The position numbers and the translations under genes were made by a program. A DNA stretch of 64,000 nt from Brevibacillus sp. JNUCC-41 (GTDB lineage Bacteria; Bacillota; Bacilli; Bacillales; DSM-1321), in NCBI RefSeq assembly GCF_014844095.1, contig NZ_CP062163.1, positions 310,001 through 374,000 on the forward strand. Reading direction: 5' to 3'. Shown here piece by piece: positions 11,788-48,028 of the stretch. The notes below the pieces were generated by a model. It saw only the letters and a list, made by a program, of their open reading frames with translations. It was not told the origin of the DNA and made no database searches. Positions within the stretch are counted from its first letter, which is position 1; every line of letters begins with the position of its first letter.

Positions 11788-11817
11788 AACATACAAAACA
11801 GAAAGTCAGTAATAATA

Positions 11818-11902
11818 TGTTCCCTCCGCTGGCATCATCCAGATCAGGTTCAAAGAGTCAGCATCTAAAGGATGCAATCTCAGCCAGCAGTACTGGCCCC
11901 CC
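11818..11902 (-). promoter_or_regulatory. TPP (THI-box) riboswitch
   Basis: On the minus strand the aptamer carries CTGAGA (within GGCTGAGATTG), then ACCTGATCTGGAT, then ATGCCAGCGGAGGGAA, the diagnostic thi-box segments in the right order and distance. It precedes thiY and a strong terminator, so TPP should switch the operon off. Confidence 0.96.
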
Positions 11903-11935
11903 TACATTTCTCGTACATATGAACTTTTCTCTCTC

Positions 11936-26169: not shown

Positions 26170-27715
<1,546 letters not shown>

Positions 27716-45979: not shown

Positions 45980-46330
45980 AACTATCACTCTTTCTACATC
46001 TGTAGTTATGTAACTAATTCTACCAGTTATTTTAAAAATATCGAGAAAATTTAAGCTGAATTGGGATTAGCATCTATTTTTTTATCGCATTCCTGCTAAC
46101 TTAACGGAGTTCGCAGAACTCCTACCCTATTAAACCCCTTCTGGAATGAGATTAAACCTATCGATTGCGAATTAACATTAGCCCCTAGTCTACTATTTAA
46201 ATAAAACACCGCTGTTAAATCGCGTTTACAAAGAGATTAAGTTTTCATGCAGCCTTGGAAGCAGACTGGCCAATTCATTGCAACATCCTTCATGAAACCG
46301 CCGGCGGCATTCAAATACATGCCGCAACCC
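45980..46330. other. Gap between sftA and the M20 amidohydrolase gene
   Basis: No gene. GGAGTTC-3-GAACTCC (46106-46122) is a perfect 7-bp dyad about 130 bases upstream of sftA and could be an operator. Otherwise AT-rich and unremarkable; no clear promoter pair found. Confidence 0.45.
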
Positions 46331-46366
46331 ATAAAACACCGTTCGTTAATACCGAACGGTGTTTTG
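46331..46366 (-). terminator. Terminator of the M20 amidohydrolase gene
   Basis: AAAACACCGTTCG and CGAACGGTGTTTT form a 13-bp stem; modest T tract on the minus strand. Confidence 0.8.
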
Positions 46367-46407
46367 TGGGTTTCTGCGTTTTTTTTGCAAACAAAGACCA
46401 AAGAAGA

Positions 46408-47601
46408 CTATTTCCATTCATAAAAACTGCATACAACCTGCGCCACTGATTTGGAGGCAATCAAAAGGGCATCTTCATCAATGTCGAATTTAGGATGGTG
46501 ATTGAAATAGGCCTTCTCCACTCCTTTCGGTTTACAGCCAATGTAAAAGAAGCAGCCAGGAATCTTTTCTGCATAATACGAAAAATCTTCCGAACCTGAG
46601 AAAACCGGAAATTCCACAACATTCTTAATATCATTGTCATTCATGCTTTCCAGGCTATTTTTCACGAATTCGGTCAGTTCAGGGTCATTATATAACGGAG
46701 GATAATCGGGCACATATGTAAGCTCGCACTGAACATCAAATTCCGTTTCTATCCCTTTAACGATCCGGTGGATTTCCTTATCGATCAGCTGCTGGGTCTC
46801 TGCCGTCATATAACGGACATCCCCTTCAATTTCTATACGATCTTTAATGACATTAAAGCTTCCCTTTCCATCGAAGGAGCCGATTGTGACTACTCCCATA
46901 TCAAATGGATTCAAGCGACGGCTGATTACGGTTTGTATGGCTGTCACGAAATGGGCGCCTGCCACAATGGTATCATTAGCCATATGCGGGGAGGAACCAT
47001 GGCCGCCTACACCCTTTATGGCTAATTTGAAATAGGTCCGTCCAGCCATCGAATAGCCGCTGCGATACCCGACGACCCCTGCTGGATGGGAAGGGAATAA
47101 ATGGATTCCGAAGACAGCGTCCAGTTCATCCAAAACCCCTGATTCCATGATGCTCTTTGCTCCACCAGGAGGTGTTTCTTCTGCATGTTGATGAATTATT
47201 TTGATCGTACCTGATAGGGAATCTTTCAGCTCAATGATGCAGTCTGCCAATACCAATAAATAAGCGGTATGCCCATCGTGTCCGCAGGCATGCATGACAC
47301 CTTCATTTTTTGAACGGAACGGAACCTCCGCTTCTTCTGTAATCGGCAGTGCATCGAAATCGGCACGGAGACCTATCGTTTTCCCTGGTTTCCCGCCTTC
47401 GATCGTCACGATGATCCCTAATCCATTTCCTGCATTCGTTTGAATCGATACATCTTTCCCGTTATAAAAATCAATGATATATTTTGCCGTTTTCTCTTCT
47501 TTGAAGGATAGCTCCGGATTCTCGTGTAAATGACGGCGGATTTGAACCATTTCCTCTTTACGGGCTTCCAGCATGTTCATTAATTTGCTTTTCAAATTCA
47601 C
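46408..47601 (-). CDS. M20 (M20D) family metal-dependent amidohydrolase
   Basis: 397 residues from the GTG at 47601, which is well spaced from GGGGGAG; the ATG at 47607 sits almost on that site. Di-metal amidohydrolase of the N-acyl-amino-acid/hippurate hydrolase type: IRRHLHENPELSFKEEKTA (starts about 20), GLRADFDALPI (about 78), MHACGHDGHTAYLL, HQHAEETPPGGAKSIM (catalytic Glu), a dimerisation domain, then GSEDFSYYAEKIPG. Family members free an amino acid from an N-acyl or N-aryl conjugate. A tandem glycine riboswitch directly upstream suggests the amino acid is glycine; that is inference. Confidence 0.93.
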   Translation of the reverse strand: MNLKSKLMNMLEARKEEMVQIRRHLHENPELSFKEEKTAKYIIDFYNGKDVSIQTNAGNGLGIIVTIEGGKPGKTIGLRADFDALPITEEAEVPFRSKNEGVMHACGHDGHTAYLLVLADCIIELKDSLSGTIKIIHQHAEETPPGGAKSIMESGVLDELDAVFGIHLFPSHPAGVVGYRSGYSMAGRTYFKLAIKGVGGHGSSPHMANDTIVAGAHFVTAIQTVISRRLNPFDMGVVTIGSFDGKGSFNVIKDRIEIEGDVRYMTAETQQLIDKEIHRIVKGIETEFDVQCELTYVPDYPPLYNDPELTEFVKNSLESMNDNDIKNVVEFPVFSGSEDFSYYAEKIPGCFFYIGCKPKGVEKAYFNHHPKFDIDEDALLIASKSVAQVVCSFYEWK

Positions 47602-47688
47602 GATCATTCTCCCCCATTATTTTAAGTTGATTGGCCTATTAGTAAGTTCCATGTTCGCTGCAAACCTTTTGTATGCATAAAGCCAATT

Positions 47689-47738
47689 AAAAAAGGACAG
47701 AGAAGGGTTGCGCAAACCTGCCGCTCCCTTCTCTGTCC
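47689..47738 (-). terminator. Terminator of the glycine riboswitch expression platform
   Basis: Minus-strand GGACAGAGAAGGG and CCCTTCTCTGTCC (47695-47707 and 47726-47738) form a 13-bp perfect stem followed by six T. The 5' arm is also the end of the second aptamer, so ligand binding should prevent this hairpin. Confidence 0.93.
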
Positions 47739-47918
47739 TTTCACCTGAGAATTCAACTCCATTTTGGTCGTGGAGATTTCCCCGTTGGCGGCACACTTCC
47801 TGCGCGCTGTCCAGAGTTGCGTCCAGCTGCGGTTCCATTTACCTGAGAGATTTGCTCCAAGGGATATTTTTGGAACTTGCTCCTTCGGTGGCTCAATGCT
47901 TTGCACTCTCCCACAACG
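47726..47918 (-). promoter_or_regulatory. Tandem glycine riboswitch
   Basis: On the minus strand aptamer 1 has GGGAGAGTGC, GCCACCGAAGGAGCAAG, AAATCTCTCAGGTAAA, GGAACCGC, GCTGGACGCAACTCTGG. Aptamer 2 has GCCGCCAACGGGGAAA, GAATTCTCAGGTGAAAGGAC. This is the usual cooperative two-aptamer layout with a short linker, directly before a terminator and the M20 amidohydrolase gene 90 bases further on. Aptamer 2 departs from consensus at the usual CCGAAGGGGCAA block. Expected behaviour is on with glycine. Confidence 0.9.
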
Positions 47919-48028
47919 TTCACAAGCTCGTTCTATCGTTTTATTCCGTATTTTCAAAATATTACAATTTCATTATCACCGATAAAAAAATAAATATCAA
48001 CTCTAAAAGTCATAAACTCTATTAAACT

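Follow-up and report, generated by a model that had tools for sequence, protein, structure and literature searches.

A tandem glycine riboswitch upstream of an M20D amidohydrolase gene in Peribacillus, the probable remainder of a switch–pump–hydrolase operon

The window, i.e. the whole stretch of 64,000 nucleotides analysed here, belongs to a genome of the genus Peribacillus (G000; 5.49 Mb, single contig), in which a search of the entire genome returned ten RF00504 aptamer matches at six places. The genus assignment follows from P. simplex VanAntwerpen02 (L098), of which a stretch of 3000 bases shows 100% identity to G024, a genome placed in the same genus as the window. On the minus strand of the window, a tandem glycine riboswitch and its terminator lie directly upstream of an M20D amidohydrolase gene, as claimed in the preliminary description. 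The regulatory feature outruns the range first noted (46408-47918) and reaches a promoter-like site at 48000-47972. The parts are given below in the direction of transcription.

47972..48000, minus strand: promoter-like site TTGATA-17-GATAAT, a pattern match only (10/12 matches)
47820..47923, minus strand: glycine aptamer 1 (RF00504 51.4 bits, E 1.2e-7, cut-off 32; model R1 73.4 bits)
47723..47824 (357723-357824 in G000), minus strand: glycine aptamer 2 (RF00504 37.1 bits, cut-off 32; R1 50.2 bits)
47731..47735, minus strand: 3' strand of P1, the closing helix of aptamer 2, pairing with 47812-47816 and lying within the 5' strand of the terminator
47689..47741, minus strand: intrinsic terminator, 16-bp stem plus U tract (hairpin -32.0 kcal/mol)
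47640..47688, minus strand: leader homologous to the stretch preceding the MFS gene in G036 (score reached by 0/2000 shuffles)
47617..47625, minus strand: TTAAAATAA, apparent remnant of the last MFS codons and stop (1/2000 shuffles; G022: 0/2000)
47608..47615, minus strand: ribosome-binding site GGGGGAGA, read directly from the sequence
46408..47607, minus strand: M20D amidohydrolase, 399 aa from ATG 47607, or 397 aa from the likelier GTG 47601

Promoter-like sites of this kind number three in the region against a chance expectation of 3.8, and comparison by eye finds the stretch in the leaders of relatives as well. Further regulatory elements were recorded in the window, namely a 20-bp inverted repeat at 46326-46372, between the M20D gene and an FtsK-like gene, which the scan scores as a terminator only for the plus strand, a T-box leader at 27493-27709 (minus strand, 155.7 bits) and a TPP riboswitch at 11804-11913 (minus strand, 75.4 bits).

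The proposed run of the Rfam glycine model placed both aptamers above the RF00504 cut-off, as a tandem pair sharing one expression platform. The suspected divergence of aptamer 2 is reflected in its lower score (37.1 vs 51.4 bits) and in a GGACAG motif instead of GGAGAG. The model of the glycine-GGAnGA variant (RF03166, a tandem model of 177 positions) matches 47729-47927 with 75.7 bits (E 4.8e-16), short of its cut-off of 110. The terminator stem comprises 16 perfect pairs (47741-47726 with 47707 onward) and is followed by a U tract to 47689; its 5' strand, 47741-47726, contains the 3' strand of P1 of aptamer 2 (47735-47731). When folded computationally without ligand, the unconstrained leader forms 16/16 terminator pairs whereas only 5/16 are left with P1 forced, and the terminator form is much more stable than the P1-forced form (-89.6 vs -70.0 kcal/mol). 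As P1 of aptamer 2 overlaps the terminator stem, a ligand-stabilised P1 would oppose termination. Judged by this anatomy, the switch should be of the glycine-ON transcriptional type, and to this extent the glycine-on logic put forward at the outset is borne out.

Across 19 switches from the genus, pairing is conserved in 98.7% of the cells of the two P1 helices, and in P1 of aptamer 2 every cell is paired in all 19 sequences. The observed P1 covariation score is reached by 0/500 shuffles. Changes on both sides of a pair occur in three pairs, all in P1 of aptamer 1; this count is matched by 25/500 shuffles, and most of the changes are contributed by three MFS switches that are related to one another. 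Over the same 19 sequences, 98.0% of the terminator-stem cells are paired, with no compensatory change and at a level no better than in shuffles. Rfam microRNA matches at 47683-47750 were rejected, as they coincide with the terminator hairpin and score far under their cut-offs. The M20D reading frame begins 81 nt past the U tract of the terminator. The idea that the real target is a small unlisted gene located ahead of the peptidase gene was likewise rejected because these 81 nt hold no separate ORF of at least 60 aa; a 73-aa ORF at 47617-47838 coincides in part with aptamer 2 and the terminator and was not taken as a gene.

The encoded enzyme passes the general amidohydrolase model TIGR01891 (353.4 bits, cut-off 153.75). 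No equivalog model is passed (CpsA 354.3 of 500, DoeB2 301.1 of 550), and a model named hippurate hydrolase (HipO) does not occur among its 22 NCBIfam matches. The closest solved structure is 4ewt (“Peptidase, M20/M25/M40 family”), with E 8.4e-144 and a match of nearly full length. Residues C108, H110, E144, H169 and H370, presumably the metal ligands (Cys, His, Glu, His and His of M20D structures), are invariant across nine aligned members. Purifying selection on the gene is indicated by dN/dS values of 0.065-0.124 against 15 orthologues, three further sequences having given no computable dS. The start codon ATG 47607 is not conserved (TTG, ATA and TTA in G027, G028 and G026) and GTG 47601 is kept in these genomes, so that a product of 397 aa is more likely than one of 399 aa. 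Identity with the metallo bile-salt hydrolases was rejected, these being assigned to a different family, PF07969, in the accessible text of PMC13081902.

The M20D gene had also been described as an unusual target for a glycine switch. To place it, an order sample of 120 genomes was used, of which 110 contain an RF00504 match. Fifty-one switch places, drawn from the 30 best loci and from 20 regions chosen among lower-ranked rows, were classified, and their targets were assigned by local BLAST with a small set of reference proteins. The switches precede gcvT in 27 places, a CycA-like permease in 5, glyA in 3 and other genes in 13, with 3 places lacking an ORF; neither M20D nor the MFS pump is a target at any of the 51. 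Inspection by eye also revealed single-aptamer glycine switches before small ACT-domain-like proteins (L264, L269, L271, L272, L278) and before long DUF711-like proteins (L268, L273, L275, L276, L277). M20D enzymes fall, we assume, in COG1473. The accessible part of PMC12452182 (Table 2) lists COG1473 (amhX) genes behind SAM-SAM (40%) and T-box-T-box (60%) pairs, i.e. a similar enzyme under paired riboswitches, but not glycine ones. For 48 Bacillaceae tandems, the accessible part of Crum 2019 (PMC6944388) gives 41 GCV and 7 transport targets, and neither a peptidase nor an amidohydrolase or other hydrolase is among the glycine-switch targets named in the accessible part of PMC2211319. Among the titles and visible abstracts listed by full-text searches, none reports a glycine riboswitch paired with M20D or MFS. 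Within these survey parts and the 51 classified places, the description as an unusual target holds.

In architecture the switch resembles the Bacillaceae gcvT tandem switch (RF00504), one copy of which is present in G000 and which likewise has two aptamers and a P1 of aptamer 2 overlapping the terminator; the difference lies in the target, here M20D and formerly, as argued below, pump plus M20D. In sequence, the large group that comes closest to the M20D switches is the glyA type, found among the Peribacillus switches of glyA-(sda)-gcv operons and CycA-like permeases. Unlike the M20D switch, the glyA and CycA-like permease switches drive genes of glycine catabolism and uptake.

A search for the same riboswitch-M20D pair in relatives had been recommended and was carried out in 43 genomes of the family. 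An M20D orthologue is present in 17 Peribacillus genomes; the order DUF1444 - M20D - FtsK-like was checked in 16 of them, and in G014 the FtsK-like side only. The tandem switch is intact at the locus in 9/17 (G000, G013, G022, G026, G027, G028, G030, G036, G041). Weak remnants are left in two, G031 (R1 19.4 bits, E 0.038; nhmmer E 7e-8) and G014 (R1 16.2 bits, E 0.29; nhmmer E 4e-4), the latter with a broken M20D gene, and no switch was found at the orthologous locus in the other six (G010, G020, G024, G025, G037, G038). These six loci and the two remnants indicate that glycine control is dispensable. In the orthologue tree, the branches that tell gain from loss lie near the root and are weakly supported (0.58, 0.71). 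As a separate observation, a protein of 238-254 aa is encoded between decayed switch and M20D in G031 (L049:2877-3593) and G014 (L065:294-1058); neither Pfam nor NCBIfam gives a match for the copy in G031.

The enzyme had been called a “lone” M20D. This is correct for the present arrangement, with no gene between switch and M20D, but the order appears to be derived. In G036, the genes are arranged as DUF1444 gene, tandem switch, MFS gene, M20D and FtsK-like gene, with an M20D 95% identical to that of the window and 8 nt between MFS and M20D. The MFS protein matches 7d5p (“Drug transporter, putative”), which we take to be NorC, with E 5.3e-162 over residues 1-447 of 462. It meets the general model PF07690 and misses the DHA2 efflux model TIGR00711 (141 vs 230.2 bits). 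The partner resembles the NorB/NorC DHA2 MFS pumps and in G036 stands behind a glycine switch, immediately before M20D. The 49-nt leader of the window corresponds to the stretch before MFS in G036 (0/2000 shuffles; 8/2000 for G022) and is joined straight to the MFS stop region and the ribosome-binding site. The counterpart of TTAAAATAA in G036 is TTGAAATAA, and the same GGGGGAGA follows in both.

Different remains are seen in G041, where the M20D leader encodes, directly upstream of the ribosome-binding site, the MFS C-terminus SETKPSISKGLPDQKLILK (52.6% over 19 residues, E 1.6e-4 with a 1.3-kb subject; DNA match 0/2000 shuffles). In G031, TKGIPDQQ occupies the matching place before M20D; with E 0.35, it is the position that speaks for this fossil. 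Together, the switch-MFS-M20D order in G036 and the MFS fossils argue that the enzyme is not lone by origin, and the comparison suggests that the pump gene was deleted from an ancestral switch-MFS-M20D operon. As G041 and the clade of the window keep different MFS pieces, we infer that the losses were at least partly separate. A similar picture is found at the locus of an M20D paralogue, where MFS is intact in G037, its last 60 residues persist in G024 (98%, E 1.5e-35) and G025 (97%, E 8.5e-35), and two fragments remain in G020 (E 5.8e-9, 8.0e-7). The MFS that is present in G009 is missing from between comparable neighbours in G008, and a search there found no fossil. The fossils at both the M20D locus and the paralogue locus indicate repeated loss of the pump while M20D stayed.

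The pairing of pump and M20D extends beyond this locus. MFS is present in 8/43 family genomes (E up to 1e-60, 14 matches) and adjoins an M20D gene in 7/8; in four matches it lies directly behind a glycine switch (G036, G016 on contig C4, and G029 twice). A class sample of 348 genomes provided 29 class loci, for 10/29 of which more than 1.5 kb of flanking sequence was taken on either side, and the best 80 named loci were added. All 80 were searched for a switch by nhmmer and 5/80 also by the covariance model R1, which with default filters missed aptamer 2 in L045, L077 and L050, all reported by nhmmer. MFS adjoins M20D in 8/29 class-sample loci and in 3 of the best 80 named loci, and no glycine switch was found at these pairs. 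Other riboswitches over the Rfam cut-offs were not detected near pump-M20D pairs in 20 sources. In a midpoint-rooted tree, the switches preceding M20D form one group (0.961), while those before MFS alone (G016, G029) group with glyA switches (0.757) within a glyA-type group of support 0.960. This separation suggests two captures of the switch, one before MFS-M20D and one before MFS alone.

A related observation concerns tandem switches with a terminator and no convincing target behind them, at L071:6619-6812, L078:16456-16650 and L082:6190-6351 (in G000, G010 and G041). Each lies ~125-170 nt past the stop of an agmatinase/arginase-family gene on the same strand. In G016 (L228), the gene following a similar agmatinase-family gene is a NorB-like MFS, and the three switches may therefore be orphans of another lost pump. 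Candidate MFS fossils behind them were rejected as chance-level matches.

The genomic surroundings of related M20D genes provide a further link to glycine. The paralogue (72-74%) lies beside glycine genes in 7/8 genomes: a CycA-like permease and glyA-gcv in G000, G023 and G028, and a PF03458 (Gly_transporter) gene in G020, G024, G025 and G037 (Pfam scan on G020 and G037). The eighth, in G010, has no glycine-gene neighbour. Downstream of a more distant relative (58-59%), an L-serine dehydratase gene comes next in 6/6 genomes; the two of these scanned, from G012 and G022, pass the TIGR00718 and TIGR00719 cut-offs. A split gene of the L-serine dehydratase type also follows an M20D relative in Oceanobacillus caeni (L088). 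These neighbourhoods represent three or four inherited gene orders rather than 13 independent events. Neither glycine/serine neighbours nor a switch were found at 11 loci with a 70-80% M20D in other genera, and such neighbours are absent from the stretches examined around the M20D copies of G016, G017 and G029 and from the 55-56% copies of G008 and G009. As controls, 0/75 named loci with an M20D below 50% identity (among the matches listed) and 0/4 lower-identity copies in G000 and G026 have such neighbours. The neighbourhoods point to glycine/serine metabolism, not to any given substrate.

The other glycine-switched genes of G000 are the gcvT operon, CycA-like permeases and glyA-gcvT-gcvH-gcvPA-gcvPB. 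For the CycA-like permeases in Peribacillus, the best model, NF008272, gives 627.4 and 615.8 bits, below its cut-off of 732. Beside these, a glycine-switched operon glyA-sdaAB-sdaAA-gcvT-gcvH-gcvPA was observed in G010, G017 and G029 (L078:2586-5250, L075, L076); gcvPB then follows in G017 and G029, and the G010 stretch ends earlier. There is no sda gene between glyA and gcvT in G000, G023 and G028. In two other genomes of the order (L259, L260), a tandem glycine switch directly precedes a PF03458 (Gly_transporter) gene, whose products share 54% and 53% identity with the protein that Peribacillus encodes after the M20D paralogue.

In summary, the locus is best read as a glycine-ON tandem riboswitch controlling M20D, the remainder of an operon of switch, NorB/NorC-like MFS and M20D after deletion of the MFS gene. 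From the sequence comparisons, we assign this reading a probability of roughly 65%. For a riboswitch already known, the module is a new target, and repeated pump loss has shaped it. At high glycine, binding to the aptamers would hold P1 of aptamer 2, the terminator would not form, and M20D would be made together with the other glycine-switched genes of the genome. With less certainty, the enzyme may act on a peptide or N-acyl conjugate and liberate glycine, or some other small amino acid, as a supply for GcvTHP/GlyA, and the pump may have handled the conjugate or the released acid; the enzyme would then have been retained after the pump was lost.

A partly competing view is that the switch is decaying in the genome of the window and that M20D is expressed without real glycine control. 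At eight positions the window differs where the eight other M20D-linked switches agree. The changes include the GGAGAG to GGACAG exchange in aptamer 2, at a base that is G in 18 other aligned switches and C here, and affect the 5' GCGGATGA stretch as well. The remnants in G031 and G014 and the six genomes with no switch found at the same locus fit such a process. The corresponding numbers of private changes are 0, 3, 0, 3, 1, 6, 4 and 15 in G027, G028, G026, G022, G036, G030, G013 and G041, where the zeros of G026 and G027 mean little since these are near-identical sisters. G041 thus carries more private changes than the window, but also lies farthest from the rest among the nine intact M20D switches. 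Moreover, both aptamers of the window pass the Rfam cut-off, its terminator has no mismatch and aptamer 2 retains an intact P1. Weakened switch function in this strain is possible, but outright decay we consider unlikely, if deserving of serious consideration.

The nature of the lost partner bears on what the operon was for. NorB/NorC-like pumps are known for efflux, a role that is a poor fit to an uptake-and-salvage circuit. The switch might instead have served the relief of glycine stress, inducing a pump and a hydrolase to clear away faulty peptides or conjugates that contain glycine, with glycine itself not the relevant product. The closeness of the partner to NorC (7d5p) and to DHA2 efflux models (below cut-offs) agrees with this, as does an ON logic like that of the gcvT switch, which the accessible part of PMC11477304 links to glycine detoxification in C. 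difficile. The pump was, however, lost at two loci or more while M20D stayed, and the neighbours include genes of uptake (a CycA-like permease behind an ON-type switch, PF03458), which makes stress relief distinctly improbable as the main function.

The narrower circuit envisaged in the preliminary description, feed-forward control by glycine of a hydrolase of the hippurate type (N-aroyl- or N-acylglycine), is more doubtful again. The ON logic would suit feed-forward induction, and a table in the accessible part of PMC11511702 places Campylobacter HipO in M20D. Still, no model or structure links the present enzyme to hippurate, its closest structure being 4ewt, and the location of the 58-59% relatives beside serine dehydratase suggests a broader or different amino acid. 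Finally, chance capture, in which a glyA-type switch was copied before the pump-M20D pair and tolerated there with no functional link to glycine, would account for a switch before M20D/MFS only in Peribacillus among the genomes examined and for its frequent loss, but is the least probable of these explanations given two apparently separate captures, paralogues beside glycine or serine genes and the lack of such neighbours at the 75 less similar M20D loci (among the matches listed).

A broader proposal can be made tentatively, with the odds against it. The NorB/NorC-like pump and M20D may constitute a widespread two-gene module for small-amino-acid conjugates that was joined to the glycine regulon in Peribacillus. 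This would reveal a natural, non-drug role of the pump in moving a glycine/serine conjugate or the released acid, with M20D continuing alone after several pump losses. The locus adds an enzyme-plus-pump module to the known targets of glycine riboswitches, and it illustrates that a riboswitch-enzyme pair of designed appearance can arise by deletion of an intervening gene. If glycine is indeed the inducer, the switch would bear directly on the substrate of an M20D clade distributed across Bacilli and on the natural role of NorB/NorC-like pumps.
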